From: Verrucomicrobiota bacterium | GTDB taxonomy: Bacteria; Verrucomicrobiota; Verrucomicrobiia; Palsa-1439 | Direction: 5' to 3' | Assembly (NCBI GenBank): GCA_016871575.1 | Contig: VHCW01000027.1 | Coordinates: 1 to 51,661, forward strand | DNA length: 51,661 nt | Part shown: piece by piece, positions 4,541 to 34,199 of the stretch | Position numbering within the stretch: the stretch's first letter is position 1 | How the letters are laid out: the number at the start of each line of letters is the position of its first letter | The notes under the pieces: model-generated | Database searches by the model: none | What the model was told of the DNA's origin: nothing | Seen by the model: only the letters and a program-made list of their open reading frames with translations | Made by a program: the position numbers and the translations under genes

Positions 4541-5734
4541 ATGTTGAACCGACTGCTGACTGCTGCCGTTATTGTGACCGCCACCAACCTCTGCGCCGCC
4601 GATTGGCCGAACTTCCTCGGGCCCAACCGCGACAGCATTTCCACCGAAACCGGCCTCAACAAGAACTGGTCCTCCCAGCCGCCCCGCGAACTTTGGCGCG
4701 TCCCGATGAGCGACGACGGCTACGCCGGCCCCGCGGTCGCCAACGGAAAAGTTTTCATCATCAACCACGAAGGCGACAAGGACATCATCCGCGCCCTCGA
4801 CCTCAAAACCGGCAAGGACATCTGGACCCACACCTACGCCGACAAATCCAAACCCAATTACGGCTTCGCCCGCGCCACGCCCACCGTCGAGAACGGCAAG
4901 GTCTATACCGTCAGCCGGTTTGGCATCGTCAATTGCCTCGACGAAAAAACCGGCAAGCCAATCTGGACCAAGGACGTCGTGAAAGAGTTCAAGGGCGAAG
5001 TCCCGCGCTGGGAAATGGCCTGGTCGCCGCTCATTGACGGCGACAAACTCATCGTCCAGCCCGGCGGCCCCGGCGCTGCCGTCGCCGCCCTCAACAAAAA
5101 CACCGGCGTCACCCTCTGGAAAGGCGGCGGCAGCGACGCTCCCGGCTATGGCACCGCCGTTATCGCCACGTTCGCCGGCAAGAAACAGTATCTCGTCTTC
5201 ACCGCCAAACACCTCATCGGTGTTGACGCCGCCAACGGCAACCTCCTCTGGAAGGTTGCTTGGGAAACCAAGTACGACGTCAACGCCGCCACGCCGCTCG
5301 TCGTCGGCCCGAACAAGGTTTTCATTTCCAGCAACTACGCCCGCGGCTGCGCGATGGTCACCGTCACCGGCAACAACGCCTCCATCACGTGGGAGAACAA
5401 GGAACTCCAGTGCCATTTCAACTCGCCGATCCTCTACAAGAACAACATCTACGGCATCAGCAACACCCTCGTCTGCCTCGACCCGCAAACCGGCAACGTC
5501 CTCTGGAAACAACCCGGTTTCGAAAAAGGCGGACTCATCATCGCCGATGGCTGCATCATCGCCATGGACGGCGCGAAGGGTGACCTTGTCATCGCCGAGG
5601 CCAGCCCGCGCGCCTACCGCGAACTCGGCCGCGTCAAACCTCTCGGCGGCCAAAGCTGGACCGCGCCGATTCTCGCCGACGGGAAACTTATCATCCGCAA
5701 CAAGAACACCCTCGCTTGCCTCGCATTGAAATAG
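4541..5734 (+). CDS. exported PQQ-like beta-propeller protein
   Basis: The 397-residue protein has a clear Sec signal peptide ([20 protein letters not shown]) followed by [11 protein letters not shown], the usual opening of planctomycete and verrucomicrobial PQQ-repeat proteins. Repeats of the form [26 protein letters not shown] and [13 protein letters not shown] mark blades of an eight-bladed-type propeller. Such proteins often act as scaffolds or as outer-membrane assembly or polysaccharide-binding factors; there is no evidence that PQQ is bound or that it is a dehydrogenase. It is followed after 1 bp by a second propeller gene, so the two are co-transcribed. The start has a good GGAG-type site upstream (aaaatAGGAGac before ATG). 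Confidence 0.88.
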
Positions 5735-5735
5735 A

Positions 5736-6800
5736 ATGTTCCACGCGTTGCTATTGGCTGCTGCTGTTTTCCGCGGCGACCCCGCGCTCACCGGCGTCAC
5801 CACCAACGCGCTCCCGCCGCAGCTTGCGTTGCGCTGGACATTCAAAACCGGCGACGCAATCAAATCCTCGCCCGTCATTTGCGGCGACCGCGTCTTCATC
5901 GGTTCCGACGACGGCAAGGTGTACGCGCTCTCGCTCAAAACCGGTGCTCTCGCCTGGTCGTTTGTGACCAGCAACGCCGTCGAAGCCGCCCCCCTCGTCC
6001 TTGACGGCACCGTTTATGTCGGCTCCACCGACGACAACCTCTACGCGCTCAACGCCGCCACCGGCGCGCTCAAATGGAAATACGCCACCGACGCCAAAAT
6101 CCCCGGCGCCGCCAACTACTTCCGCACCGGCAAAGCGGCGCGCATCCTCGTCGGCAGCCACGACAACAAGCTCCACTGTCTCGACGCCGCCACCGGCAAA
6201 CCCGTCTGGACGTTCGACACCTCCAACTACATCAACGGCGCCCCGGCAGTCGGCGACAACAAAATCGTCTTCGGCGGTTGCGACGGCCTCCTTCACGTTC
6301 TCGATTTCGCCGGCAAAGAACTCGCCGCCATCGAAGCCGGCGCCTACGTGCCCGGCTCCGCCGCCATTCGCGACGGTCAGGCATTTGCCGGCCATTACGG
6401 CAGCGAAGTCATCTGCGCCGACCTCACCCGCACCAACGTCCTCTGGCAATACAAAGGCCGAGACGCTTTCTTCTCCTCGCCTGCTGTCACCGACAAACTT
6501 GTTGTCATCGGCGGTCGCGACAAACGCCTCCACTGCCTCGACCGCGCCACCGGCAAGCTGCTCTGGGCATTCCAGACGCGCGACGAGGTTGACTGCTCAC
6601 CGGTCGTTTCCGGCGACAAAGTCATCTTCGGTTCCGGCGACGGTCGCCTCTACTTGTTGAGCCTCGCCGACGGCAAACAACTCTGGAGCTACGACATCGG
6701 CAAACCCATCACCGGCTCGCCGGCGATTGCCGGTGGGCTTGTCGTCATCGGGGCCGAAGACGGCGTCGTGTATGCTTTTGGCGCGAAGCGGAGTCCTTGA
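5736..6800 (+). CDS. PQQ-like beta-propeller protein
   Basis: This 354-residue protein is made almost entirely of PQQ-like repeats, with at least seven copies of the pattern [15 protein letters not shown] / [15 protein letters not shown] / [15 protein letters not shown]. The N terminus ([21 protein letters not shown]) is short and hydrophobic and may serve as a minimal signal peptide. It is paralogous to the gene just upstream, though shorter and with a more regular repeat. It overlaps the glycosyltransferase start by one base (TGATG), so translation is likely coupled. Context suggests a cell-envelope role such as polysaccharide handling, which is inference. Confidence 0.85.
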
Positions 6801-8029
6801 TGCGCATCCTGCAGCTAACGCCCGGCACCGGCGCCTATCACTGCGGCGGTTGCCTCCGCGACCTCGCGTTGGTGCGCGCCCTCCGCGCCCGCGGCCATGA
6901 CGTGACGATGGTGCCGCTCTATCTGCCCATCGTCAATGACGCGCCGGTCGAAACCTCCGGCACGCCGGTGTTCCTGAGCGGTATCAGCGTGTTCCTCGAA
7001 CGAAAATTCCGCGTCCCGCGCTGGCTCGACCGCGTTTTCAGCGCGCCGGCGCTGTTGCGCGCCTCGGCAAAGCTCGCCCACCTCACCACCGCCAAGGACC
7101 TCGGCGAATCCGCCGTCGCCATGCTCACCGGTGCGCCGCCCGAACTGGATCGGCTCCTTGACTGGCTCCGCACGCAACCCCGTTTCGATGTCGTCTGCCT
7201 CTCCAATTCGCTGCTGACCGGCATGGCGCGCCGTCTCAAGCAGGAACTCCGCGCCCCGCTCGTCGCCACCCTCCAGGGCGAGGACACGTTTCTCGACGGC
7301 CTTGTCGAACCTTATCGCGCCCGTTCCTGGCAACTGCTTGCTGAACGCTCTGCCGATGTTGACCGTTTCATCGCCGTCAGCCGTTTCTTTGCCGACCTCA
7401 TGCGCCCGCGGCTCCACATCGCCGCCGACCGCGTCAGCGTCGTCCACAACGGCATCGCGCTCGAAGAATTCACTCCCGCCGCCCTGCCGCCGGCGGCGCC
7501 GACTGTCGGTTTCCTTAGTCGAATGCATCACGACAAAGGTCTCGGCCTCCTCGCCGACGCCTTCGCCGAGTTGAACATCCCCAACGCCCGCCTCCGCGTC
7601 GCCGGCGCGATGACCAACGCCGACAAGCCTCTCGTCGCCACGGTGCGCCGCAAACTCGGCGACCGTGTCGAGTTCCTTCCAAACATCGAGCGTGACGCCA
7701 AGATCGCGTTCCTCCAAAGTCTCAACGTCCTTTCCGTCCCAACACTCTACGCCGAAGCGTTTGGTCTCTACGTTCTCGAATCGCTCGCCTGCGCCGTCCC
7801 CGTCGTCCAACCGCGACACGGCGCATTTCCTGAGTTGATCGAGTCCACCGGCGGCGGCCTCCTTTGCGAGCCCAACGATTCCCATTCCCTCGCCGCCGCG
7901 CTCCGCGAACTCCTTGCCGACCCGGCGCGCGCCCGCGAACTCGGCCAAGCCGGTCGCGCCGCCGTCCAGGAGAAGTTCAGCGTTGAAAAAATGGCGCAAA
8001 GCATCGAAACCATTCTTCTGTCTGCGTGA
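6800..8029 (+). CDS. glycosyltransferase, GT4-type GT-B fold
   Basis: The 409-residue protein shows the GT-B architecture. The N-terminal domain starts with RILQLTPGTGAYHCGGCLRDLALVRAL, part of which is the glycine-rich acceptor loop. The C-terminal domain has VGFLSRMHHDKGLGLLADA for nucleotide-sugar binding and EAFGLYVLESLACAVPVV, which contains the E-x7-E motif of retaining GT4 enzymes. The ATG at 6800 shares its A with the previous stop codon; a TTG three bases upstream is also open but less likely. There is no signal peptide, so it acts at the cytoplasmic face. Acceptor and donor cannot be read from the sequence. It follows two propeller genes, which fits an envelope glycan locus. Confidence 0.88.
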   Translation: MRILQLTPGTGAYHCGGCLRDLALVRALRARGHDVTMVPLYLPIVNDAPVETSGTPVFLSGISVFLERKFRVPRWLDRVFSAPALLRASAKLAHLTTAKDLGESAVAMLTGAPPELDRLLDWLRTQPRFDVVCLSNSLLTGMARRLKQELRAPLVATLQGEDTFLDGLVEPYRARSWQLLAERSADVDRFIAVSRFFADLMRPRLHIAADRVSVVHNGIALEEFTPAALPPAAPTVGFLSRMHHDKGLGLLADAFAELNIPNARLRVAGAMTNADKPLVATVRRKLGDRVEFLPNIERDAKIAFLQSLNVLSVPTLYAEAFGLYVLESLACAVPVVQPRHGAFPELIESTGGGLLCEPNDSHSLAAALRELLADPARARELGQAGRAAVQEKFSVEKMAQSIETILLSA

Positions 8030-8047
8030 TAGCGCCGCCTCACCCCA

Positions 8048-8085
8048 TGCCACATCAATGTCATAGCTATGACATTGATGTGGCA
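8048..8085. repeat. perfect 38-bp palindrome
   Basis: The left arm TGCCACATCAATGTCATAG (8048-8066) is followed without a spacer by its exact reverse complement (8067-8085). It lies 18 bp after the glycosyltransferase stop and 51 bp before the preferred start of the radical SAM gene. It is much richer in A+T than its surroundings. There is no T-run, so it is not a classical terminator; an operator, cruciform or transposon scar is possible. Confidence 0.9.
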
Positions 8086-8136
8086 AAGGCAGAATCGCTG
8101 GCAAATGACAGCGGCTCTGTCAGAATGGGATCCAAC

Positions 8137-10107
8137 ATGAGCGACTACAGCCAGCCAGGACCACGACCTGACCCGATGTTCGGCAACCCGGACTTCACGG
8201 CTGCTACAACGCGCGTGTTGATCGTCCGTCTCTCGCCGTTCCGCGACGTTGACCGCTCGACCTCGCACCTGTTCCTCTTCGACGCCGTCCGCCGGGCCGA
8301 GCCGCGCGCCTATATTGACTTTGCGTTCTTTCCACTTTTCACCGGCATCCAGTCGTCACACCCCGCCAAGGATTTCGATCTCGTTCTCGTCTCGAATTCG
8401 TTCGTGCTGGAGATGTTGAACCTGCCATACATGCTCCGTCACTCCGGTTGGCCGGTGCTTGCGAGTGAACGCGCCGGAAAATTTCCGCCGGTCATCCTCG
8501 GCGGTTCCAACGCCAGCGCCGCGCAGTCGCTTGCGCCTTTCGTGGATGGCATCTTCGTCGGCGAAGCCGAGGAAGCGCTCGCCGAAATCATCCGCACACG
8601 GCGGGTTCCGTCTGCGCCGGTGAAACTCAAGCGCCCGCGCGCCGACCTCCTGCCGTTGCGCTACCCGATTCTCAACAGCCCCGAAGCCGGCACCGCGCGA
8701 CTCCAGATCACCTACGGCTGTCCATTTGCCTGCTCGTTTTGCTTCGAGGGTTTTGATCGCAAACCCTACCGCGAACTTCCCGCCGCCGATCTTATCGCCC
8801 ACGCCCGACGCCTCAAACAACAGACCGGCTGCGAGGAGATTGACTTTTTCAGTTTCAACTTCAACACCCACACCGACATCGCCCGGCTCATCATCGAGTT
8901 GAACCGCCTGTTCGACCGCGTCAGTTTCAAGAGCCAGCGCGTGGACCTCCTCGCGCAAACGCCGTGGCTGTTGCCGCTGGAAGTCGCCGCCGACAAACGC
9001 AGTTTCACGCTCGGCATCGAGGGCATCAGCGAGCGACTTCGCGACTTCCTCAACAAATCGCTCGCGACTGCCGATATCCGCGCCGTCCTCCAATCGCTGC
9101 TTCGCGAACGCATCCGCGAAATCAAACTCTTCTACATCCTCACCGGCCACGAGACCGACGCCGACCTCGCCGAGTTCCGCGAGTTCGTGCGCTGGCTGAA
9201 AGAGAAACGCCGCGCCGCGAACCCGAACCTGCGCATTGTTTTCAGCGCCGGGCTTCTCGTGCGGATGCCGGGCACGCCTTTGGAAAACGACCGCCTGTTC
9301 CTCGACGAAGCCGACTTCAAACCGATCCTCGGTCCGGTCAAATCGGCTTGCGAGACCAACAACTTCGAGTTTCGTCTCGCCGCATCGTGGACCGACTACG
9401 CCGCGACGCAAGTGCTGGCTCTCGGCGGTACGATCAATCCCGACGCCGACATCTGCTACGACACGGCGCTGCCGCCGTCCGCGTGGGAACAAATCAAAAC
9501 GTGGCAACAACCGCACGTCACGCGTCTCAAACCGCTTCGTCCGTCGAAACCAGTCGCGCGAAAACTCCGCCCGCCGGAAGATTTGCCGGCGTTCCGCGAA
9601 CTCATGGCGCGCAAGGCCCGGCTGAAACCGTTCTTCGTCCGCCTTCGCGTCCCACCTGAATGGTCTGGCGCAACCACCGAGTCGCTCAACGCCCGGATGT
9701 TCGCGCGCCTGCTCCAGCAACGCCCTGAGCTTACCGACAACCTCCTCTCCGTCCGCGAAGCCGCGTTCACCCCGCGCGGGTGGCAGGTCACCGGCGAAAC
9801 CGTCTTCGCCCTCAAGGCGTGGAAGAATTTTGGCGACACCATCGGAACCAACGAATTCCGGCAAGCCACCGTCGAACTCCGTCAGCCGGGCATCGGCGCG
9901 CGCGTGCAAGAGTGGCTTCGCGCCGAGCGTCTCGCGTTCAGCGCGCGCCGCGACAGCAACGGCTACCGGCTCGAACTTTCCGCCGACGCCCGCAAGAAAC
10001 GAATCGTGTTCGACGCCTACGTCGAAACCGATTTCGCGCGTCTTACCATCGGCTCAAAGTGCCGGCTTGATCTCGGACAGATCCACGTGACGGCGCTGGT
10101 CCTGTAG
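8137..10107 (+). CDS. B12-binding-type radical SAM protein
   Basis: Counting from the ATG at 8137 the protein has 656 residues. The N-terminal third resembles a cobalamin-binding (B12-BD) fold without an obvious DxHxxG, followed by ILGGSNASAAQSLAPFVDGIFVGEAEEAL, whose second half is typical of this class. The radical SAM motif C-x3-C-x2-C is C195-PFA-C199-SF-C202. A long C-terminal region with a TRAM-like end follows. Such enzymes do methylations, rearrangements or ring chemistry on unknown substrates. The open frame reaches back to 8026 through the 38-bp palindrome; ATGs at 8125, 8137 and 8176 are all possible and no strong ribosome binding site decides. The stop codon lies inside a palindromic repeat. 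Confidence 0.8.
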   Translation: MSDYSQPGPRPDPMFGNPDFTAATTRVLIVRLSPFRDVDRSTSHLFLFDAVRRAEPRAYIDFAFFPLFTGIQSSHPAKDFDLVLVSNSFVLEMLNLPYMLRHSGWPVLASERAGKFPPVILGGSNASAAQSLAPFVDGIFVGEAEEALAEIIRTRRVPSAPVKLKRPRADLLPLRYPILNSPEAGTARLQITYGCPFACSFCFEGFDRKPYRELPAADLIAHARRLKQQTGCEEIDFFSFNFNTHTDIARLIIELNRLFDRVSFKSQRVDLLAQTPWLLPLEVAADKRSFTLGIEGISERLRDFLNKSLATADIRAVLQSLLRERIREIKLFYILTGHETDADLAEFREFVRWLKEKRRAANPNLRIVFSAGLLVRMPGTPLENDRLFLDEADFKPILGPVKSACETNNFEFRLAASWTDYAATQVLALGGTINPDADICYDTALPPSAWEQIKTWQQPHVTRLKPLRPSKPVARKLRPPEDLPAFRELMARKARLKPFFVRLRVPPEWSGATTESLNARMFARLLQQRPELTDNLLSVREAAFTPRGWQVTGETVFALKAWKNFGDTIGTNEFRQATVELRQPGIGARVQEWLRAERLAFSARRDSNGYRLELSADARKKRIVFDAYVETDFARLTIGSKCRLDLGQIHVTALVL

Positions 10108-10169
10108 CCGCGAGCCTGCTCGCGGTATTCAGTGTCGCGTTGCCCACCGCGAGCAGGCTCGCGGCCACA
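10103..10169. repeat. REP-like palindromic repeat overlapping a stop codon
   Basis: Arms TGTAGCCGCGAGCCTGCTCG... (10103-10126) and its reverse complement (10146-10169) match at 23 of 24 positions, and each arm is itself partly palindromic. The TAG at 10105-10107 that ends the radical SAM gene is part of the left arm. The TGTAG opening resembles the repeats at 13196 and 26801. Confidence 0.9.
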
Positions 10170-10206
10170 GACTTGCCGGGTGTTTTCATTCTGGTATTCT
10201 GTCGCC

Positions 10207-10866
10207 ATGCTCCTCGAACTCCAACACGTTCACAAGGGTTACGCATCGCCGCCGGTCGAAGTGCTGCGCGACATCAACTTCCAGCTTGCCGACGGTGAAG
10301 CCGTCGCCATTGTTGGCCCGAGCGGCTCCGGCAAGAGCACGCTGCTGAACATCCTCGGCGCGCTCGACCGCCCGACGCAAGGCACCGCGCTCTTCGACGG
10401 TCGCGATCTCGCCACGCTGACCGAGCCAGAGCTTGCCGCCATCCGCAACCGCCAGATCGGTTTCATCTTCCAGCTTCACCATCTTCTCCCGCAATGCACC
10501 GTGCTGGAGAACGTGTTGATTCCAACGCTTGCCGGTCAGCCTGATGCGAACGCCAGCGACCGTGCCGTGAAGTTGCTGGAACGGGTTGGTTTGCAACACC
10601 GCTTGGAACATCGTCCCGGCCAACTTTCCGGCGGTGAATGCCAACGTGTGGCCGTCGCCCGCGCGTTGATCAACCAACCGAAACTCCTGCTCGCCGACGA
10701 ACCAACCGGCGCGCTCGACCACGCCAACGCCACCGGCCTCGGCCAATTGCTCATCGAACTGAACAAGGAACAAGGTGTCGCGCTCGTCGTCGTGACGCAC
10801 TCATTGGAACTGGCAAAGCGACTACCGAAGGTCGTGGAGTTACGCGACGGGGTGTTGAATGGATAA
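10207..10866 (+). CDS. ABC transporter ATP-binding protein, LolD/MacB-like
   Basis: The 219-residue ATPase has a Walker A motif (GPSGSGKST), Q-loop ([10 protein letters not shown]), ABC signature (LSGGECQR), Walker B ([12 protein letters not shown]) and the switch histidine (VVTHS). The LDRPT and [10 protein letters not shown] patterns place it in the LolD/MacB/FtsE group that powers FtsX-type permeases. Its partner is the double-FtsX gene at 11310. A GxxExxY gene with inverted repeats separates the two, and the TAA stop at 10864-10866 abuts the left inverted repeat, so the 3' end may have been reshaped by that insertion. Role: export or lipid/lipoprotein extraction from the inner membrane, inferred from the family. 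Confidence 0.92.
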
Positions 10867-11301
10867 TCCGCAGATTTCGCAGATGACACAGATTTTATGG
10901 AAACGGAGAAAAGAGACCCAAGAACCTACGCCATCATTGGAGCGGCGATGACGGTGCACCAAGAATTGGGGTGCGGCTTTCTGGAGGCGGTGTATCAGGA
11001 GGCGTTAGCACTGGAGTTCGCTGCACGCGGCATCCCCTACCAGCGCGAAGTTGAGTTGCCCGTCAGCTACAAAGGTCAACGGCTTAACACTGCTTACCGG
11101 GCCGACTTCATCTGTTTTGATTCTGTCGTGGTCGAGTTGAAGGCGTTGGCCAGACTCAGCGGCATCGAGGAAGCCCAAGTTATCAACTACCTCAAAGCCA
11201 CCGGCCTCACCACCGGTTTACTCCTCAACTTCGGTTCCCCCTCGCTCGAATACCGCCGTCTCATCCGTTCCCCATCTGCGCAATCTGTGAAATCTGCGGA
11301 T
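10866..11301 (+). mobile_element. GxxExxY cassette with terminal inverted repeats
   Basis: A left arm starting ATCCGCAGATTTCGCAGAT (10866) and a right arm at 11274-11301, whose reverse complement starts ATCCGCAGATTTCACAGAT, bracket a single GxxExxY gene. The arms match at 18 of the first 19 bases and then diverge. The unit sits between an ABC ATPase gene and its permease gene, which would normally be adjacent, so insertion is the simplest reading. No transposase is encoded, so any movement would need help in trans. Confidence 0.65.
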
Positions 11302-11313
11302 ACCAATTCATGA
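10897..11313 (+). CDS. GxxExxY protein
   Basis: The 138-residue protein belongs to the GxxExxY family, named for a motif seen here as [13 protein letters not shown]. The segment [16 protein letters not shown] holds D...ExK, the pattern of a PD-(D/E)xK nuclease-like core, and the family is thought to be related to that fold; its function is unproven. It lies in a pair of inverted repeats and its last codons overlap the permease start by 4 bp (ATGA), so downstream translation is preserved. The C-terminal tail ([14 protein letters not shown]) is encoded by the right repeat. The family is typically found as scattered copies in PVC and Bacteroidota genomes. Confidence 0.88.
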
Positions 11314-14342: not shown

Positions 14343-15539
14343 ATGATCATCCAGATGGCCAAACGAACGCTGTCCCACACCGACCTCCGGTTGTTGTGGA
14401 AGTTCGCCGTCAACTTCGGCCTGAAAGGAATGCTCTCGGTGCAGCGGTTCAAGCGGCGGATCAAACGCGGCGTCTGGTTTCCGCCGTTCCTGTACATCTC
14501 GATCACCAGCGCCTGCAATCTGCGCTGCACGGGCTGTTGGGCCGACGTGTCCGCGCCGCCGCGGCATCTCGGCCTCGACGACCTGAACCGGCTGATCGCC
14601 AGCGCAAAGCGGCACGGCAACAGTTTCTTCGGCATCCTCGGCGGCGAACCGTTCATGCACCCGCAACTGCTCGACGTCCTCGCCGCGCATCCCGACTGCT
14701 ATTTCCAAGTGTTCACCAACGGCCAGTTCCTCACCGACGACGTTGCCGCCCGGCTTCGCGCGCTCGGCAACGTGACGCCGCTCATCAGCATCGAGGGCAA
14801 CGAACCCGTCAGCGACGAGCGCCGCGGCCGCAGCAACGTCTTCCCGCACACGATGCGCGGCTTGGAAACCGCCGTCCGCCACCGCCTCATCACCGGCGTG
14901 GCGACCAGCGTGTGCCAGAACAACATCGCCGACCTGCTCACCGAGGCGTGGCTTGACGAACTGATTCGTCGCGGCGTGACCTACGTCTGGTTTTACACCT
15001 ACCGGCCTGTCGGCCCGCAACCCGCGCCGGAACTGGCGTTGACGCCGGAGCAGGTGTTGCGGGTCCGCCGGTTCTGTGTCGAAATGCGCAAACGTAAACC
15101 GATCGGCATCGTGGACGCCTACTGGGACGACCAAGGCCACGCGCTCTGCCCGGCGGTTACCGGCATCAGCCATCACATCGGACCAGGTGGCGACATCGAG
15201 CCATGCCCGATCATCCAGTTTGCCGGCGTAAAGATCACCGACAACAGCGGCGACATTTTCAAAACGATCGCCGAGGCGAAATATCTGGCCGACTTCCGCA
15301 AAACGGTCGCGAGCGCGACGCGCGGCTGCGTCGTGCTGGAACGGCCGGACCTGTTGCGGGAGTTGGTGGCGAAACACGGACTGCGCGACACAACGGCCCG
15401 GCAGACGGCCCTGAGCGAACTGGCGGCGATGAAGCCCCGCACCAGCCAACACAACCCCAGCAACGAAATCCCCGAGGAACACTGGGCCTACCGTTTCGCC
15501 AAGAAACATTGGTTCTTCGGCTTCGGAGCGTACTCGTGA
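14343..15539 (+). CDS. radical SAM protein (HpnH/SPASM-like)
   Basis: The 398-residue protein carries the radical SAM motif C58-x3-C62-x2-C65 (SACNLRCTGC), then GGEPFMHPQ, the usual GGEP segment, and a C-terminal cysteine cluster (GPGGDIEPCPI, with further Cys) that could hold an auxiliary Fe-S cluster. The N-terminal FGLKGMLSVQRFKRRIKRG and overall order resemble radical SAM enzymes such as HpnH, which modifies hopanoids, but identity with HpnH is not claimed. It starts directly after the permease stop (ATG at 14343, or at 14355) and overlaps the lipoyl-carrier gene by 4 bp. Together with the cyclases downstream this suggests modification of a terpenoid. Confidence 0.85.
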   Translation: MIIQMAKRTLSHTDLRLLWKFAVNFGLKGMLSVQRFKRRIKRGVWFPPFLYISITSACNLRCTGCWADVSAPPRHLGLDDLNRLIASAKRHGNSFFGILGGEPFMHPQLLDVLAAHPDCYFQVFTNGQFLTDDVAARLRALGNVTPLISIEGNEPVSDERRGRSNVFPHTMRGLETAVRHRLITGVATSVCQNNIADLLTEAWLDELIRRGVTYVWFYTYRPVGPQPAPELALTPEQVLRVRRFCVEMRKRKPIGIVDAYWDDQGHALCPAVTGISHHIGPGGDIEPCPIIQFAGVKITDNSGDIFKTIAEAKYLADFRKTVASATRGCVVLERPDLLRELVAKHGLRDTTARQTALSELAAMKPRTSQHNPSNEIPEEHWAYRFAKKHWFFGFGAYS

Positions 15540-16000
15540 CAGACAATCCACAAGGCGTCGTGACCGACCTCGGCGATTCGCTCTCGTATAGCCGGTGCAA
15601 GTTCTCCACCACGCTGCCGAAAAGTTATCGTTACACCCCCGGCCATTACTGGCTCTCACAAACGGCGCCGGGAGTGTGGCGGGTCGGGCTGACCCGGTTC
15701 GCGTTGCGGATGCTCGGCGATTTCGTCGAGATGCAACTCGATGCGAAACCCGGCGCGCCCGTGCAGGTCGGCGAGGAGATCGGCTGGTACGAAGGATTGA
15801 AGGCGCGGACGGATTTGTTTTGCGTCGTGGCCGGCGGGTTCGAGCGGGCCAATCCCGATTTGTCCGACCCGCGCGACGACCCGTACGGCGCGGGCTGGCT
15901 TTATGAAGTGCGCGGCACGCCCGATCCGCAGAGCGTGGACGTGCGCGGCTACATCGCCGTGTTGAATGCGACGATTGACAAGCTGCAAGAGGAGGACTAG
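15536..16000 (+). CDS. GcvH-like lipoyl-carrier protein
   Basis: The 154-residue protein, with a GTG start in a GTGA overlap with the radical SAM gene, follows the pattern of the glycine-cleavage H protein. It has YTPGHYWL, then VGLTRFALRMLGDFVEM, then GEEIGWYEGLKARTD, in which K89 occupies the lipoyl-lysine position, then DDPYGAGWLYEV. There is a 30-residue N-terminal extension with a Cys (C21). No glycine-cleavage P or T gene is nearby, so it is unlikely to work in glycine cleavage. Stand-alone H-like proteins can carry sulfur or acyl groups on lipoate; here it may hand groups to the neighbouring radical SAM enzyme. That role is inference. Confidence 0.82.
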   Translation: MTDNPQGVVTDLGDSLSYSRCKFSTTLPKSYRYTPGHYWLSQTAPGVWRVGLTRFALRMLGDFVEMQLDAKPGAPVQVGEEIGWYEGLKARTDLFCVVAGGFERANPDLSDPRDDPYGAGWLYEVRGTPDPQSVDVRGYIAVLNATIDKLQEED

Positions 16001-16011
16001 AGGAATCAGCG

Positions 16012-16377
16012 ATGAGTGGATGTAAAACCAAATCGTTTGACTTCGAGGAATGCGCCTGTTCGGGCCGGACCTTGGGCAAGCTCGTGCGGCCTTACATTCT
16101 GGCTCTGCTGGCCGACGGCCCGGCGCACGGTTATGCGTTGCTGGAGCAATTGTCCGAGGCCGGCATTGAGCCGGACCATTCCGTTGTGTACCGAGCGCTC
16201 AACAGCATGGAGAAAGAGGGCTTGGTGAGTTCGCGGAGGACGGCCGGCACCGGCGGCCCGACCCGTTGGGAGTACGAACTGACCCCGACCGGCCACGCCT
16301 GTCTTCGCCGCTGGCAACGTTCACTCACCCGCTACCGGGCCGCCATTGACAGCCTGCTCAAGCTAATTCGTTCTTGA
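16012..16377 (+). CDS. PadR-family transcriptional regulator
   Basis: The 121-residue protein has a winged-helix domain of PadR type: LVRPYILALLADGPAHGYALLEQL, then SVVYRALNSMEKEGLVSS for the recognition helix, and GPTRWEYELTPTGHACL for the wing. An N-terminal Cys group (C4, C13, C15 in EECACSG) may sense metal or redox state. It lies 11 bp after the lipoyl-carrier gene. Just downstream is an inverted repeat with ATGT and ACAT half sites, the type of sequence PadR proteins bind, although the spacing is 9 rather than the common 8. It is the likely local regulator of the terpenoid-like locus. Confidence 0.88.
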   Translation: MSGCKTKSFDFEECACSGRTLGKLVRPYILALLADGPAHGYALLEQLSEAGIEPDHSVVYRALNSMEKEGLVSSRRTAGTGGPTRWEYELTPTGHACLRRWQRSLTRYRAAIDSLLKLIRS

Positions 16378-16403
16378 CGACGGTTGTGTCTTTCCGCTAT
16401 GTG
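16374..16403 (+). promoter_or_regulatory. predicted promoter of the GTPase-aquaporin pair
   Basis: TTGACG (16374-16379) and TATGTG (16398-16403) are separated by 18 bp. The block GTCTTTCCGCTATGTGCAC (16388-16406) recurs, less one C, upstream of the ferredoxin gene at 18366. The -35 box overlaps the PadR stop codon region. Confidence 0.6.
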
Positions 16404-16418
16404 CACTGGACACATAGC
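16396..16418. promoter_or_regulatory. inverted repeat, candidate PadR operator
   Basis: GCTATGTG (16396-16403) and CACATAGC (16411-16418) form exact 8-bp arms around a 7-bp centre. The repeat covers the -10 box and probable start of transcription and ends 1 bp before the ATG at 16420, so a bound repressor would block expression. Confidence 0.6.
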
Positions 16419-16419
16419 A

Positions 16420-17541
16420 ATGAAACAATCGCAACCACGCTACATCATGGTCGGCGGTTTCCTCGGCGCCGGCAAGACGACGGCGATCCTGAAACTGGCG
16501 GAACATCTCAAGCGGCAGGGGCGGGCCGTCGGGCTGATCACCAACGACCAGGGCACCGGGCTGGTGGACACCGCGATGGCGCGGGCCAGCGATTTTCCGG
16601 TCGAGGAAATCTCCGGCGGTTGTTTCTGTTGCCGGTTCAATTCGCTGGTGGACGCCACGCGGAAATTGACGGCCACAACGCGTCCGGATGTGTTGATCGC
16701 GGAACCGGTGGGCAGTTGCACCGACTTGATGGCAACGGTCACCCTGCCGATGAAGCAGCTATACGGTGAGAACTACCGGATTGCGCCGTTGAGCGTGCTC
16801 GTTGATCCCATCCGCGCGATGCGCGTGCTCGGCCTCGGCGGCGGCCGTCAGTTCGCGCCGAAGGTGACGTACATCTATCGGAAGCAACTGGAGGAGGCGA
16901 ACCTGCTCGTCGTCAACAAATGCGAACTGCTCGATGCGACGCAAACAGCGAAGCTGGTGGCCGCGCTGAAACAGAATTTCCCTAAGGCCGACGTGTTCGC
17001 CGTTTCCGCACGCACCGGGGACGGACTTGCGGCGTGGTTTGACCGGATCCTGACCGGCGAACTCAGCGCGACCGACATCATGGACGTGGACTACATCACT
17101 TACGGCGTCGGCGAAGCGATGCTCGGCTGGTTGAACGCGACAGCGCGCCTGAGCGGTTCGCCTGTGGACGGCAACGAGTTGTTGTTGCGTATTGGTTGCG
17201 CGCTGCGCGACCGTCTCGCCAAGGCCGACGCGGAAATCGCGCATCTCAAGATGACGCTCACTGCGACCGGTGACGGACTCGACATCGCCGTGGCGAATCT
17301 TGTTCGCACCGACGCTGTGCCGGAATTGTCGTTCCGCCTCGCGGAACCGTTCACCGAGGGCGAACTGACCGTGAACCTGCGGGCGCAAGCCGAGCCGGCG
17401 TTGCTGGAGCGAATCGTGCGGGAAGTGGCTGGCGAGTGTGGCGCGGCGCTTGGAAGTCTCGCCAGCTTCAAGCCGGGGCAACCGAACCCGACACATCGGG
17501 TTGATGCGGGCGGTGTGGAGCACCGGCCGGTGTTGCCATGA
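16420..17541 (+). CDS. CobW/G3E-family metal GTPase
   Basis: The 373-residue protein has a P-loop (GGFLGAGKT, residues 12-20), the CxCC metal motif typical of CobW/ZNG1 GTPases (C68-F-C70-C71), a Walker B-like LIAEPVGSC and the guanine motif VNKCELL. G3E GTPases insert or deliver metals such as Zn, Ni or Co to client enzymes. The ATG at 16420 has no clear ribosome binding site and lies close to the predicted transcription start, so the leader may be very short. It overlaps the aquaporin gene by 4 bp. In this locus it may load metal into one of the enzymes, which is inference. Confidence 0.88.
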   Translation: MKQSQPRYIMVGGFLGAGKTTAILKLAEHLKRQGRAVGLITNDQGTGLVDTAMARASDFPVEEISGGCFCCRFNSLVDATRKLTATTRPDVLIAEPVGSCTDLMATVTLPMKQLYGENYRIAPLSVLVDPIRAMRVLGLGGGRQFAPKVTYIYRKQLEEANLLVVNKCELLDATQTAKLVAALKQNFPKADVFAVSARTGDGLAAWFDRILTGELSATDIMDVDYITYGVGEAMLGWLNATARLSGSPVDGNELLLRIGCALRDRLAKADAEIAHLKMTLTATGDGLDIAVANLVRTDAVPELSFRLAEPFTEGELTVNLRAQAEPALLERIVREVAGECGAALGSLASFKPGQPNPTHRVDAGGVEHRPVLP

Positions 17542-18308
17542 AGCTGGCCCGTTGGGTGGTTGGCGAATTCTTCGGGACATTCCTGCTGGTGTTTTTCGGT
17601 TGCGGCAGCGTCTGCGCGTCTGTCACGACCGGTGGGCAGGTCGGCGTGTTTCAAGTCGCCATCGTCTGGGGACTCGGCATCGCGACGGCGATCTACCTCA
17701 CCGGCGCGCTTAGCGGCGCGCACCTGAACCCGGCGGTGACGCTGAGCCTGTCGGTCTGGTCGGATTTTCCACGACGCAAAGTCCCGTCGTATCTTGCCGC
17801 GCAATTCACCGGCGCGTTCGCGGCGGCGGTCGTGTTGTATTTCATCTTCGGCGGCACGTTGGCGGCGTTCGAGCAGGCCAACGGCATCGTTCGCGGCCAG
17901 GCCGGCAGCGAGGCGAGCGCGAAGGTATTCGGCGAGTTTTATCGCCACCCACTGACTACAGCCCAGGCGTTCGGCGCAGAAGTCGCCGGCACGGCGGTGA
18001 TGTTGCTGGTGATTTTCTGCGTCACCGATGAACGCAACAAAGCCCGGCCACGAATCCTGACCGCCGCGACCATCGGCCTGACGGTGACGTTGCTGATCTC
18101 ACTGCTCGGCCCGCTGACGATGGCCTGTTTCAATCCAGCGCGCGACCTCGCTCCGCGATTGTTCTCGGCGCTGGCCGGCTGGGGCGCGGTGCCATTTCAG
18201 GTGAACGGCATCGGCTGGTTGACGGTCTATGTGGTCGCGCCGGTTCTGGGCGGATTGTTGGGTGGCGCGGTCTATCGGACGTTGTTCCGTGATGCATACG
18301 CCGGATAA
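17538..18308 (+). CDS. MIP-family channel (aquaporin/glycerol facilitator)
   Basis: The 256-residue membrane protein has six predicted helices and both half-helix motifs: SGAHLNPAVTLSL (first NPA) and MACFNPARDLAPRL (second NPA). The D after the second NPA-R is typical of glycerol-type channels, but an assignment to glycerol or water is not safe. The start at 17538 forms an ATGA overlap with the GTPase stop. Its place between a metal GTPase and a ferredoxin in a terpenoid-like locus is odd; it might move a small neutral substrate or product. Confidence 0.92.
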   Translation: MKLARWVVGEFFGTFLLVFFGCGSVCASVTTGGQVGVFQVAIVWGLGIATAIYLTGALSGAHLNPAVTLSLSVWSDFPRRKVPSYLAAQFTGAFAAAVVLYFIFGGTLAAFEQANGIVRGQAGSEASAKVFGEFYRHPLTTAQAFGAEVAGTAVMLLVIFCVTDERNKARPRILTAATIGLTVTLLISLLGPLTMACFNPARDLAPRLFSALAGWGAVPFQVNGIGWLTVYVVAPVLGGLLGGAVYRTLFRDAYAG

Positions 18309-18365: not shown

Positions 18366-19055
18366 ATGGCGATCATCTACTGTAATTGCGTCCATGCCAA
18401 AGTTCTTTCGCCCGACGCGAAAGAGGCAGCGTTGCGCCAACTCCGCGAGTCGGGCGAGCCCTTCGAGGTGGTCGCCGATCTCTGCGAGCTTGTGGCGCAC
18501 GGACAATTCACCGCCACCGAACCGCTGAAGGTTTATGCCTGTCACCCGCGCGCGGTGAAAAGCCTGCTGCCGAACGCCGCGGAGGTTGTGGATTTGCGCG
18601 GGCAAACCACGGCGACAGCCACTTCGCCGGGAGCGTGGTTCCCGGTGATTGACTTCAACCGGTGCAGCCATTGCATGCAATGCCTCAGCTTCTGCTTGTT
18701 CGGCGTGTTCGCGGCGACGGCGGGCAAGATCCGCGTCACGCAGCCGGACAACTGCAAGCCGAACTGCCCGGCCTGCGCGCGGGTTTGTCCCGAAGCGGCG
18801 ATCATTTTCCCGAAACATCCGGAGCCGATCATCCACGGCGGCGACGGCCAGCGCGAGAAGGTGGACGTGTCGGCGTTGCTCGGCGGCGATGTCTATCAGG
18901 CGTTGCGCAAACGGTCGCGCTTCGCCAAGGACCGCGACGCCGCGACGGCGCGCGCGGAACGTTGCCAGTGCATCGCCAAGCTCCAGAAACAGCTCGGCAT
19001 TCCCGATGAAGTTTTGCGCAACCTCAACGTCGAATCGCTACAAAAGGACAAATGA
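18366..19055 (+). CDS. 4Fe-4S ferredoxin-domain protein
   Basis: The 229-residue protein starts MAIIYCNCVHAKVLSP, a short N-terminal domain of ~80 residues, followed by two cluster motifs: CSHCMQCLSFCLFG and CKPNCPACARVCPEA. The first has a C-x2-C-x2-C-x3-C pattern and the second C-x3-C-x2-C-x3-C-P, so two [4Fe-4S] clusters are likely. It should be cytoplasmic. The ATG at 18366 has AGGTGA five bases upstream; a GTG at 18357 is also open. It overlaps the DUF116-synthase gene by 4 bp, and the cysteine-rich DUF116 part there is its likely redox partner. Confidence 0.8.
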   Translation: MAIIYCNCVHAKVLSPDAKEAALRQLRESGEPFEVVADLCELVAHGQFTATEPLKVYACHPRAVKSLLPNAAEVVDLRGQTTATATSPGAWFPVIDFNRCSHCMQCLSFCLFGVFAATAGKIRVTQPDNCKPNCPACARVCPEAAIIFPKHPEPIIHGGDGQREKVDVSALLGGDVYQALRKRSRFAKDRDAATARAERCQCIAKLQKQLGIPDEVLRNLNVESLQKDK

Positions 19056-20656
19056 AACTGCCGCGCCTTGCGCCGCCGCCCCGGTTCCGGCTGCCACAAC
19101 CGAACATTCCGCCGACGCTCCAGCAACGCGACGAGCTGGTGCAGTTCGCGCGCCGCTGGGTCAAGGAATGGGCGCCGGTGCCGCCGGTGCCGCTGGCGGA
19201 GTTGCGGGAGTTGGCCGACAAGGTCATCGCTGAAACCGGCACCGACGCGCAGTTCCGCGATTACGTTGCTGTGCTCATCAACAACGAACTCTGGCGCGAG
19301 ACGCTCGCCGCGATTCCGTACGAGCGCCGGCTGTTGCTGTTGCCGAAATGCCTCCGCGCCGAGGACAAATGCCGCGCTTCGATGGATGAGTTCGGCCTGC
19401 TCTGCAAACAATGCGGCCAGTGCACGATCCAGGATTTGCAGGTCGAGGCCGAGCGGCTCGGTTACGCCGTGCTCGTCGCCGAAGGCTCGGCGATGGTCAC
19501 GCAGATGATCCAGGCCGGCAAGATTGACGCCATCGTCGGCGTCTCCTGCCTGAACGTGCTGGAGAAAGCGTTCCCGTACATGGAAGCCGCCGCGATTCCC
19601 GGCTTCGGCATCCCGCTGTTGCAGGGCGACTGCGCCAACACGACCGTGGACCTCGATTGGGTCTGGGACATCATCCACCTCACCAGCGCCGACACCACGC
19701 GCCGGCTCGACCTGACGGCGTTGCGCGAGGAGGTCGAGACGTGGTTCACGCCCGACGCGCTCGCCCGCGTGCTCGGTCCCGCCGACGGCCAGACCGATCA
19801 ACTCGCCCGCGAGTGGCTCGCCCGCGCCGGTAAACGCTGGCGGCCGTTCCTGACCGTGGCGACCTATCAGGCGTTGCGCGACCGTTCCGGCGACGAATTG
19901 TCCGATGACCTCCGCAAGCTGGCCGTCGCGGTCGAGTGTTTCCACAAGGCGTCGCTCATCCACGACGACATCGAGGACAACGACGCCCGCCGCTACGACG
20001 ACCCGACGTTGCACGAACAGCACGGCGTCGCCATCGCGCTCAATGTCGGCGACCTGCTCATCGGCGAAGGCTACCGTCTGATCCGCGCGACGCAGGTTTC
20101 CCCGCTGCAGACCCCCGCGCTGTTGCACGCCGCCGTCGAAGGCCACCGGCGATTGTGCCTCGGCCAAGGCGAAGAACTTTTCTGGAGGCGGCATCCGTCG
20201 CCGCTGAGCGTGCGCCAGGTGTTGAACATTTTCCGGCAGAAAACCGCGCCGGCTTTCGAGGTCGCGTTGCGGCTCGGCGCGATTTACGCGGGCCGGCACG
20301 AGCCGGTCAGCGAGGCGCTCGGCGCGTACAGCGAAGCGCTCGGCATCGCCTACCAGATCCGCGACGACCTCGAAGACTTCACCGCCGGCAAGCTGGACGA
20401 GACGGAGCCGAACCTGTTGGTCGCTCTCAAGCACGAAAAGGTCAAAGACCCCGAAACGCGGGCGCGAGTGTTGTTGGAGAGTTACAAACAGGAAGCGATC
20501 CGGTCGTTGCGCGACGTGCCCAGCGCCAATCTCAAGGGATTGTTGCGCCGCGTCGTCGGCCGCATTTTCAACCACGCGGAAATCAAAGGCTGGTGCCATG
20601 AGTTTCAGGCTCGAAATGCTGCAAGCCGCGCGACGAGCGCCGGCGCGGCTGGGTGA
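19052..20656 (+). CDS. fusion of DUF116 domain and polyprenyl synthetase
   Basis: The 534-residue protein joins two domains. Residues ~25-235 match DUF116: LLLLPKCLRAEDKCR, then FGLLCKQCGQCTIQDL and VGVSCLNVLEKAFPYMEA, with several conserved Cys that could bind Fe-S. Residues ~245-520 are a trans-isoprenyl diphosphate synthase, with the first Asp-rich motif D305-D306-x2-D309 (HDDIEDND) and the second D438-D439-x2-D442 (RDDLED). This half should condense IPP with an allylic diphosphate. The fusion suggests that the Fe-S/DUF116 part acts on the same intermediate or partner. Tightly linked to the ferredoxin (ATGA overlap) and to the cyclase genes (59-bp overlap downstream). No signal peptide. 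Confidence 0.88.
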   Translation: MKLPRLAPPPRFRLPQPNIPPTLQQRDELVQFARRWVKEWAPVPPVPLAELRELADKVIAETGTDAQFRDYVAVLINNELWRETLAAIPYERRLLLLPKCLRAEDKCRASMDEFGLLCKQCGQCTIQDLQVEAERLGYAVLVAEGSAMVTQMIQAGKIDAIVGVSCLNVLEKAFPYMEAAAIPGFGIPLLQGDCANTTVDLDWVWDIIHLTSADTTRRLDLTALREEVETWFTPDALARVLGPADGQTDQLAREWLARAGKRWRPFLTVATYQALRDRSGDELSDDLRKLAVAVECFHKASLIHDDIEDNDARRYDDPTLHEQHGVAIALNVGDLLIGEGYRLIRATQVSPLQTPALLHAAVEGHRRLCLGQGEELFWRRHPSPLSVRQVLNIFRQKTAPAFEVALRLGAIYAGRHEPVSEALGAYSEALGIAYQIRDDLEDFTAGKLDETEPNLLVALKHEKVKDPETRARVLLESYKQEAIRSLRDVPSANLKGLLRRVVGRIFNHAEIKGWCHEFQARNAASRATSAGAAG

Positions 20657-21419
20657 GTCCGCCGGTCTCGTCCGCCAATTCGTCCGCGGCCAGCAACTTC
20701 CCGACGGCAGTTTCCGCGACCGCAGCGGGCGCAGCGACATTTACTACACCGTCTTCGGTCTCGGCTGCCTGCAAGCGTTGCAGGAACCGCTGCCGCCGAA
20801 TTTGGAACAATATCTTCAAAGTTTCGGCGACGGCGCACAACTCGACTTTGTTCACTTCACCTGCCTCGCCCGCTGTTGGTCTGTCCTCCAACCGCCGGCG
20901 AGCCTCGCGCAACGACTCGCCGCATTTCCGCCGCCACAAACCGTCTATGACTGCTATCTCGCCTGCGGCGCGCATCAGGATTTGCAGGCGCCATTGCCAG
21001 ACACCGGCCCGTGGCTGCGCTGCCTCGAATCGCTCCGCTCAGGTGACGGCGCGTACGGTAACGCGCCCGGCCTGCTGCTCGGCTCGACGCTCGCCACTGC
21101 CGCTGCTGCGATGTTGCTGCGGCACCTCGGCGTAGCTGTCCCCACCGAACTCGGCCCGTGGCTGCTGGCGCAGTGCCGGCCGGAAGGCGGTTTCGTCGCG
21201 ATGCCGCGCGCGCCGGTGCCGGATTTGTTGTCCACGGCCACGGCGTTGCACGCGCTGGCCGGACTGCGCGTCCCGCTTGATGGCATCACGGAACCGTGTC
21301 TCGATTTCCTCGACTCGCTCTGGAGCAACGAGGGTGGATTTCACGGCCACTGGGCCGATGAGCATCTCGACGTCGAGTACACCAGCTACGCGCTGCTGGC
21401 GCTGGGACATCTTGCATGA
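20598..21419 (+). CDS. prenyltransferase / terpene-cyclase-like alpha-barrel protein
   Basis: This 273-residue protein has repeats of the alpha/alpha-barrel type shared by protein prenyltransferase beta subunits and class II terpene cyclases: LPDGSFRDRSGRSDIYYTVF, GDGAYGNAPG, PEGGFVAMP and NEGGFHGHWADEHLDVEYTS, each close to a QW-like motif. It is less than half the size of a normal cyclase and has no DxDD motif. It may be a partner subunit that completes the barrel of the next gene product, or a separate prenyl-binding protein. The start at 20598 overlaps the synthase 3' end by 59 bp in another frame; it has a 4-bp overlap with the next gene. Confidence 0.78.
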   Translation: MSFRLEMLQAARRAPARLGESAGLVRQFVRGQQLPDGSFRDRSGRSDIYYTVFGLGCLQALQEPLPPNLEQYLQSFGDGAQLDFVHFTCLARCWSVLQPPASLAQRLAAFPPPQTVYDCYLACGAHQDLQAPLPDTGPWLRCLESLRSGDGAYGNAPGLLLGSTLATAAAAMLLRHLGVAVPTELGPWLLAQCRPEGGFVAMPRAPVPDLLSTATALHALAGLRVPLDGITEPCLDFLDSLWSNEGGFHGHWADEHLDVEYTSYALLALGHLA

Positions 21420-23109: not shown

Positions 23110-23886
23110 CTAGACGCGGGTAAGTTCGCGGAGGCGACGACGCAGACAGGCGCGAAATGCGGCGTGCCGCTCTTCAACAGCAGGGCCGCGATAGGATTTT
23201 GGCCAGAGGGCACGCGGCAACAACGGGTCAAATGAGAAGGCGTACTGGTAGGCGTCTCGCTCGATTCGCGCGACGCGGGCCAGTTCTTGGAGGTTGGCGG
23301 CTCGATTGAGCGAAGCGGTGTTGGCCACTGCATGCTGGAGATAGCCTTGATGCTGGCGGTTGATCTCGTCAAAGTCCCAGGCGGTGACGACCAGTTCCTT
23401 GTCGTCGCAAAGAAACAGACGGCTGACTTCAAATCCGCAGAAACATTCGGGAATCCCGCGTGCTTGGATGATGTCTTTCAGGACTGGCTCGACCTCGTGC
23501 GGCCAGACCCACACGCTGCGCTGTAACAGGCCGAATTTGGCGGCTCGCAACGCGCGCCACAGGTTGCTGCGGTCCCGTCGCCGCGAGGTGGGCAGATCGA
23601 AGCTGAACACGCGCCATTTGCCGTCCCACGCCAAATCCCAGTTTCGCCCCGGTTCCCACACCGGCAGACGTTTCCGTCCCGCGTCGGTGATGCTGAAGTG
23701 CGCCGTCTTTCCGCGTCCGCGCTGCTGCACGAGGCGTTGTTGCCGCCAGCGATCCAGCAGCCGGTCGAGTTCCCGGTCGCTGCTGCAGGAACGGAAGCCC
23801 GCCAGGATCAATCCGCAATCCCGCCGCGAGAACACCTCCAGCCCCCACAGAAAAAACTCCAGCGCGATCTCGATCTCCAATCTCAT
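23110..23886 (-). CDS. PaaX-family regulator-like protein, copy 1
   Basis: The 258-residue protein has an N-terminal winged-helix region (LFFLWG-type start, EIALEFFLWGLEVFSRRDCG; then LDRLLDRWRQQRLVQQRGRG) and the PaaX central domain, of Cas2-like ferredoxin fold (WDGKWRVFSFDLPTSRRRDR, then LLQRSVWVWPHEVEP). A C-terminal domain follows (RIERDAYQYAFSFDPLLPRALWP). PaaX proteins repress catabolic operons in response to acyl-CoA. A close paralogue lies at 33420-34199. No catabolic genes are adjacent. The palindrome at 23946 lies between a TTGACT-like -35 and a GATAAA-like -10 on the minus strand, so self-repression is plausible. Confidence 0.8.
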   Translation of the reverse strand: MRLEIEIALEFFLWGLEVFSRRDCGLILAGFRSCSSDRELDRLLDRWRQQRLVQQRGRGKTAHFSITDAGRKRLPVWEPGRNWDLAWDGKWRVFSFDLPTSRRRDRSNLWRALRAAKFGLLQRSVWVWPHEVEPVLKDIIQARGIPECFCGFEVSRLFLCDDKELVVTAWDFDEINRQHQGYLQHAVANTASLNRAANLQELARVARIERDAYQYAFSFDPLLPRALWPKSYRGPAVEERHAAFRACLRRRLRELTRV

Positions 23887-33419: not shown

Positions 33420-34199
33420 TTAGGAAGGGGTGTGCAGGTCGAGCAGCCGACGACGGAGCATCGCGCGGAATGTTTGGTGGCGTTCTTCCACATCCGCGCC
33501 ACTGTAGGACCTGGGCCAGAGTTCGCGCGGCAACAGCGGATCGAGTGAGAACGCGTATTGGTACGCCTCGCGTTCGATGCGCGCGAGGCGGGCGAGTTCG
33601 GTCAGGTCGCGCGCCCGTTTGACGGAGGACGGGTTGGCCACGAGATGACGGAGGTAGGTGGTGTGTCGCCGTCCGATCTCTTTGAAGTCCCATGCCGTGA
33701 CCACCACCTCGGCGTCATCGCACAGAAACAGACGGCTGGCCTCAAACCCGCAGAAGCATTCCGGTATTCCCTGCGCTTGGATCGTCTCGCGCAACAACGG
33801 CTCCACTTCGTGAGGCCAAACCCACACGCTGTATTGCAAACAGCCGAGCTTCGCGTTGTGCAGCGCCCGCCAAAGACGGGTGCGATCCTTGCGACGGTCG
33901 GTCGGCAGGTCGAAGCTGAACACCCGCCACTTGCCGTCCCATGGTTTCGTCCAATGCCGGTTCGGGTCGAACACCCGTACGCGCGCCCGGCCGCGTTCGG
34001 TGATTGTGAAGTGGGCGTTTCGTCCGCGACCGTGTCGCGAGACGAGTTGCTGTTGGCGCCAACGGTCCAGCAACTGGTCGAGGTTGCGTCCGCCGGGCGT
34101 GTCGCGGAAGCCGGCGAGGATCAGGCCGCAGTCGCGCCGCGAAAACACTTCCAGCCCCCAAAAGAAAAACTCCAACGCGATTTCGCACTCCAGTCTCAT
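33420..34199 (-). CDS. PaaX-family regulator-like protein, copy 2
   Basis: The 259-residue protein is co-linear with the copy at 23110 over its whole length: EIALEFFFWGLEVFSRRDCG, LDQLLDRWRQQQLVSRHGRG, WDGKWRVFSFDLP, YSVWVWPHEVEPLL, IPECFCGFEASRLFLCDD and YQYAFSLDPLLPRELWP. The domain order is winged helix, Cas2-like fold, C-terminal domain. The frame is open far upstream of the ATG at 34199, but that extension runs antisense to the DUF1846 gene and is not coding. It sits between carB1 and the DUF1846-carB2 pair and is bracketed by direct repeats 879 bp apart. Confidence 0.8.
   Translation of the reverse strand: MRLECEIALEFFFWGLEVFSRRDCGLILAGFRDTPGGRNLDQLLDRWRQQQLVSRHGRGRNAHFTITERGRARVRVFDPNRHWTKPWDGKWRVFSFDLPTDRRKDRTRLWRALHNAKLGCLQYSVWVWPHEVEPLLRETIQAQGIPECFCGFEASRLFLCDDAEVVVTAWDFKEIGRRHTTYLRHLVANPSSVKRARDLTELARLARIEREAYQYAFSLDPLLPRELWPRSYSGADVEERHQTFRAMLRRRLLDLHTPS

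Follow-up and report, generated by a model that had tools for sequence, protein, structure and literature searches.

Gene content of the locus

A gene encoding a GcvH-like lipoyl-carrier protein (H) was analysed together with its neighbours in the window, the whole stretch of 51,661 nucleotides under study. The gene follows that of a radical SAM protein (rSAM) and is surrounded by genes with the following coordinates, strands and products.

5736-6800, + strand: PQQ-type beta-propeller protein; matching places in loci L296 and L310 and in the type B clusters described below
6797-8029, + strand: GT4 glycosyltransferase; associated with the cluster in the same way as the beta-propeller (L296, L310, type B)
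10132-10866, + strand: ABC transporter ATPase; syntenic in L296, present in L310
11310-14342, + strand: FtsX-type ABC permease; syntenic in L296, present in L310
14343-15539, + strand: rSAM, 398 aa; CxxxCxxC and four more invariant cysteines (C191, C269, C288, C329)
15536-15539, + strand: GTGA overlap joining the end of the rSAM gene to the beginning of H (translational coupling); ATGA in its place in L297 and L298
15536-16000, + strand: H, 154 aa, GTG start; K89 is codon 15800-15802
16012-16377, + strand: PadR-family regulator between H and CobW; its place in the cluster is not conserved elsewhere
16384-17541, + strand: CobW-family GTPase with a GGCFCC motif; ortholog in 31/31 genomes with H
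17538-18308, + strand: MIP/aquaporin-family channel; also found with CobW, but not near H, in L282 and L283
18357-19055, + strand: fusion of a small N-domain (CxC...DLCE...AC.PRA) with a 4Fe-4S ferredoxin domain; most relatives encode the two as separate genes (FdxN, FdxC)
19052-20656, + strand: DUF116 domain-polyprenyl synthetase fusion; both DDxxD motifs kept
20598-21419, + strand: prenyltransferase-type alpha-toroid protein (PTr), 273 aa
21416-23029, + strand: squalene-hopene/class II terpene cyclase-like protein; DADDT acid motif

Several other features of the window were recorded. A second radical SAM protein (8026-10107; Radical_SAM_N2, B12-binding-like) is encoded inside the cluster and had no counterpart among the relatives examined. 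The gene of a GxxExxY PDDEXK-type protein (10897-11313) lies between those of the ABC ATPase and the FtsX permease and has the same place in L296, a locus from another class. Two PaaX-like regulators (23110-23886 and 33435-34199) are 72% identical and are encoded on the same strand. The CobW-aquaporin pair (16384-18308) stands alone in L282 (genome G013) and L283 (G243), with no H or rSAM gene nearby, and may be a separate module.

Seven cysteines are invariant in the rSAM alignment. The protein scored 30.4 bits against TIGR03470 (HpnH), under the cut-off of 225.05 bits, and its nearest solved structures include SkfB, BlsE and PqqE, which are modifiers of peptides or sugars. The coupling of H to the rSAM gene through GTGA, as described in the first-pass annotation, was confirmed as an overlap at the junction of the two genes. 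In L296-L298, which belong to a family (f66) of another class than that of the window, H likewise lies immediately 3' of the rSAM gene, and the ATGA of L297 and L298 is a 4-nt overlap like the GTGA of the window. Two loci of family f27 (L268 and L273) likewise have H next to rSAM. In many genomes H adjoins CobW, not rSAM, and adjacency to CobW is the commoner arrangement.

The GcvH-like protein and the lipoylation genes of the genome

H matches the Pfam family GCV_H (E = 8.8e-13, 48.7 bits against a cut-off of 22.2). It also matches two NCBIfam GcvH models, far under their curated cut-offs (61.1 bits against 117 and 54.5 against 115.85). In a sequence comparison with proteins of solved structure, GcvH chains came closest (1.5e-15). 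An AlphaFold2 model based on an alignment of 25 relatives reached a pLDDT of 95.5, and all 21 significant matches in a structure search with this model were GcvH proteins. The model superposes on GcvH chains, including those in complexes with LplA (3a7a) and LIAS (9c19), and places K89 in a hairpin turn between strands 81-87 and 91-95, within the E-x-x-K-A turn of the family. K89, E86 (three residues before K89) and A90 are invariant in 32 of 32 aligned close relatives. The kept fold and lipoyl lysine noted in the first-pass annotation are borne out by the Pfam match, the model and the alignment. The GTG start is supported by the N-terminal extension of H, which is conserved in L296-L298.

H resembles GcvH (PF01597, TIGR00527) in its fold (TM-score up to 0.71 by query length), in the E-x-x-K-A turn and in the conserved residues H37, W39, N106 and GW120-121. 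It differs from GcvH in its identity of only about 30-35%, scores under the equivalog cut-offs, N- and C-terminal extensions, a basic helix at 54-59 (TKFATRMLG) and the absence of linkage to gcvT or gcvP. The sequence ESVKA of canonical GcvH is replaced by EGFKA in the H family, and Pro97, present in 100 of 102 canonical GcvH proteins, is mostly lost. Positions 58 and 59 are R and M in 32/32 members, and position 54 is K or R in all of them.

The description of H as an orphan with no glycine-cleavage genes holds for the window, where a search found nothing related to the gcvT and gcvP genes of this genome. It does not hold for the genome, in which gcvT, gcvH and gcvP are contiguous on another contig (C82) and include a canonical GcvH. 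The view that the organism is without glycine cleavage was rejected on account of this complete locus, and H is a second GcvH-type protein, apart from the first.

The first-pass annotation would have given up its reading had the genome lacked a lipoate ligase or octanoyltransferase; two genes of the LplA/LipB family are present, as is lipA (373.9 bits). No extra PF21948 gene was found in genomes with H (0-2 copies, versus 1-2 in those without H). A dedicated lipoate ligase was rejected, since the LplA/LipB gene count in genomes with H is no higher than in relatives lacking it. Neither a ligase nor an E3-type reductase was found within the cluster. One genome with H (G228, 91% complete) gave no LplA/LipB-family match.

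Distribution and conservation of the cluster

A profile built from five close relatives of H was run over 286 genomes of the window's class. An ortholog of H was found in 31 of these genomes, which belong to 13 families. The scores were bimodal, with the 31 genomes at about 127-270 bits and then a gap down to 91 bits and below, where ordinary GcvH proteins lie. In a tree of H and GcvH sequences (95 rows, 122 columns, long branches), a branch with an SH-aLRT of 94 separates the H clade from canonical GcvH. A smaller group, termed type B and mostly from family f4, has a branch of its own (SH-aLRT 99) and may be the sister of the H clade, a placement weakened by the long branches and few columns. 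K89 is also kept in 6/6 type B relatives.

The neighbourhoods of H in about 30 genomes share a recurrent order: NifS / H-CobW-FdxN-FdxC-rSAM-DUF116/polyprenyl synthetase-toroid protein-DxDD cyclase. The same gene order recurs across families, and no further gene is equally recurrent in these neighbourhoods. The NifS-type cysteine desulfurase gene is divergent beside H in about 15 loci and is absent from this place in the window and in L296-L298. Of the 31 genomes with H among the 286, all carry CobW, 30 the DUF116-polyprenyl synthetase and 27 rSAM; the Fisher p values of about 1e-28 or smaller ignore shared ancestry, though H spans 13 families. The DADDT motif is intact in all 11 cyclases checked, and DDxxD is present in all nine polyprenyl synthetases checked, with two copies in all but one. 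In L270, L271, L272 and L274 (family f27), a lone H lies beside a PQQ-type beta-propeller related to that at 4541-5734 of the window, away from the remaining cluster.

The gene pair that the first-pass annotation proposed to seek in other genomes does recur, both as the adjacency in L296-L298 and as the presence of rSAM in most genomes with H. The association of H with a radical SAM enzyme is real and conserved. The pair as a unit overlooked a larger cluster, which adds CobW, ferredoxin, the DUF116-polyprenyl synthetase, the toroid protein and the class II cyclase-like protein, and the setting is a terpenoid cluster.

The nearest relative of the window is L296, with 76% identity for rSAM, 55% for H and the same gene order bar a few insertions. 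No match to rSAM, CobW or the DUF116-polyprenyl synthetase was obtained at the thresholds used in a genome of the same genus and nine genomes of the same family. Because the nearest relative belongs to another class and the three genes gave no match in these close relatives, sequence comparison suggests horizontal gain of the cluster.

The rSAM family occurs in 60 of 388 genomes of the phylum. Outside the class, H was found in only 5 of 53 rSAM genomes when whole genomes were considered, and the rSAM clusters lacking H are otherwise alike (Fdx-rSAM-DUF116/PPS-toroid-cyclase). Since most rSAM clusters outside the class are without H, it is an accessory part of the pathway in some lineages, and another thiol or an ordinary GcvH could stand in for it where it is absent. 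In type B clusters, the radical SAM protein encoded beside H is another one, 525 aa long and of the B12-binding type (best match TIGR04013). The type B loci (L121-L124 and L281) keep H, ferredoxin, the cyclase and the DUF116-polyprenyl synthetase, whereas rSAM is swapped. Like the clusters without H, they point to a supporting role of H. The DUF116-polyprenyl synthetase match in L281 is spread over two frames. In L324 (G461), a complete ordinary gcvT-gcvH-gcvP set lies less than 4 kb from the rSAM gene of the cluster; its GcvH was rejected as a member of the H clade, being the ordinary GcvH of a canonical glycine cleavage locus.

Proposed role of H and alternative explanations

H is probably a paralogue of GcvH that acts as the dedicated lipoyl carrier of a conserved terpenoid cluster of Verrucomicrobiota, and not of glycine cleavage. 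As a dithiol/disulfide, a lipoyl arm is able to transfer electrons or hydrogen, to carry sulfur or to hold a bound intermediate; the last two were the roles suggested in the first-pass annotation. A dithiol redox relay, in which the dihydrolipoyl arm of H serves rSAM and the Fe-S enzymes, is favoured because a single cluster encodes a cyclase and a radical SAM enzyme along with ferredoxin domains, and it is proposed tentatively.

In the proposed pathway, K89 of H would be lipoylated by the housekeeping LipB/LplA and LipA enzymes. As their intact motifs suggest, the DUF116-polyprenyl synthetase would form a prenyl diphosphate and the DxDD cyclase would cyclise a polyprenyl chain. The cyclised lipid would then be modified by the radical SAM enzyme with electrons from ferredoxin. 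The dihydrolipoyl arm of H would dock on rSAM and the Fe-S proteins as a donor of electrons or hydrogen atoms, and H would be re-reduced by dihydrolipoamide dehydrogenase. Against this, rSAM chemistry can proceed where H is missing, or with other thiols or an ordinary GcvH in its place. The dedicated carrier together with this pathway and the redox relay is the best explanation as a whole, and it is held with slightly less than even confidence. A possible but doubtful reading is that a carrier protein with a lipoyl group is the dedicated donor of a dithiol (or of sulfur) to the radical SAM enzyme of a bacterial terpenoid pathway not yet described.

The main rival is an LbpA-like sulfur carrier, whose dihydrolipoyl arm would accept persulfide sulfur from NifS and offer it to the rSAM, ferredoxin or DUF116 proteins to be built into the lipid product or a cluster. 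LbpA of sHdr sulfur oxidation is associated with hdr-like genes and a dedicated LplA-like ligase and has two strictly conserved cysteines near its N- and C-termini (PMC6067878). It provides a precedent for sulfur carriage and, like H, is a GcvH-like protein outside glycine cleavage that is encoded beside radical SAM and Fe-S proteins. The cluster of H, unlike that of LbpA, contains terpenoid genes and no hdr genes, LplA or RadSAM1/2 pair. Cysteine columns of the H family are not invariant (21/33 and 19/33 in the best two), and H was rejected as an LbpA because the hdr genes, the dedicated ligase and the invariant cysteines are all missing. The divergent NifS genes favour a sulfur carrier, but they are missing from that position in L296-L298 and in the window, and may simply supply Fe-S assembly. 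FdxN is faintly similar to the N-domain of HdrA (NCBIfam, E = 0.0099), and four HdrA chains were among the top matches of its structure search at E values of 0.04-0.12, a fold likeness below significance; an FdxN profile run against the PDB gave chance matches only. A sulfur-carrying role is considered unlikely.

H might instead be a protein substrate of rSAM, either as octanoyl-H that is converted to lipoyl-H by a private lipoyl synthase or through a modification of the peptide type. The adjacency and translational coupling of the two genes, the structural proximity of rSAM to SkfB, BlsE and PqqE, and the precedent of LipS1/S2 for GcvH-like proteins (PMC10332631) speak for this role. A canonical LipA is nevertheless present in the genome, no ligase is encoded in the cluster, and an rSAM ortholog was not seen in four genomes with H. 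The absence of any H from most rSAM genomes outside the class also argues against H as the substrate and for a replaceable supporting role, which leaves the substrate reading improbable.

It is very improbable that H is a second GcvH for glycine cleavage or a lipoyl relay that lies in the cluster by chance: its fold and lysine are those of GcvH, and GcvH acts in lipoyl relay in Bacillus (PMC6067878), but H forms a separate clade with the family-wide surface changes at positions 58, 59 and 97, a canonical gcvH already accompanies gcvT and gcvP, and H co-occurs strongly with the cluster. An unlipoylated scaffold or regulator recruiting CobW and rSAM would fit the unbroken link of H to CobW (31/31) and the lack of an LplA/LipB-family match in G228, yet it would need neither K89 nor E86, both absolutely conserved, and is equally hard to credit.

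The dedicated carrier was also compared with two other systems. GcvH-L of the macrodomain operons of Staphylococcus and Streptococcus is likewise a GcvH-like carrier outside glycine cleavage and was a weak structural match (5a35, E = 2e-3), but it is far more distant from H than GcvH is, and no macrodomain or sirtuin genes were seen here. The hopanoid pathway with HpnH, an analogy only, is likewise a lipid pathway in which a cyclase of the squalene-hopene type works alongside radical SAM and glycosyltransferase enzymes. HpnH pathways are not known to contain a lipoyl carrier, DUF116 or CobW.

Squalene-hopene cyclase clusters of Verrucomicrobiota have been counted (PMC8692599), and the excerpted text of that paper holds no match to the present gene set. 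A search of the open literature, with subscription papers outside its scope, yielded no description of the gene set and nothing relevant on DUF116, and a lead to a CobW-related selenoprotein was rejected as a single table line that gave no function. The cluster is widespread and apparently undescribed.

Protein-bound lipoate is known from a handful of systems, the latest being that of LbpA, a GcvH relative that had been masked by annotation. The clade of H, which accompanies a cluster of radical SAM and terpene cyclase genes across 13 families of a single class, hints at a further lipoate system in lipid biosynthesis, and the plain label GcvH is probably wrong for one of the two copies in genomes with H. 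The cluster offers a defined set of about nine genes for a product of which no description was found, and it makes testable the idea that a dihydrolipoyl arm serves radical SAM chemistry. If this is true, protein-bound lipoate would function in the biosynthesis of isoprenoids, a setting apart from both sulfur oxidation and central carbon metabolism.
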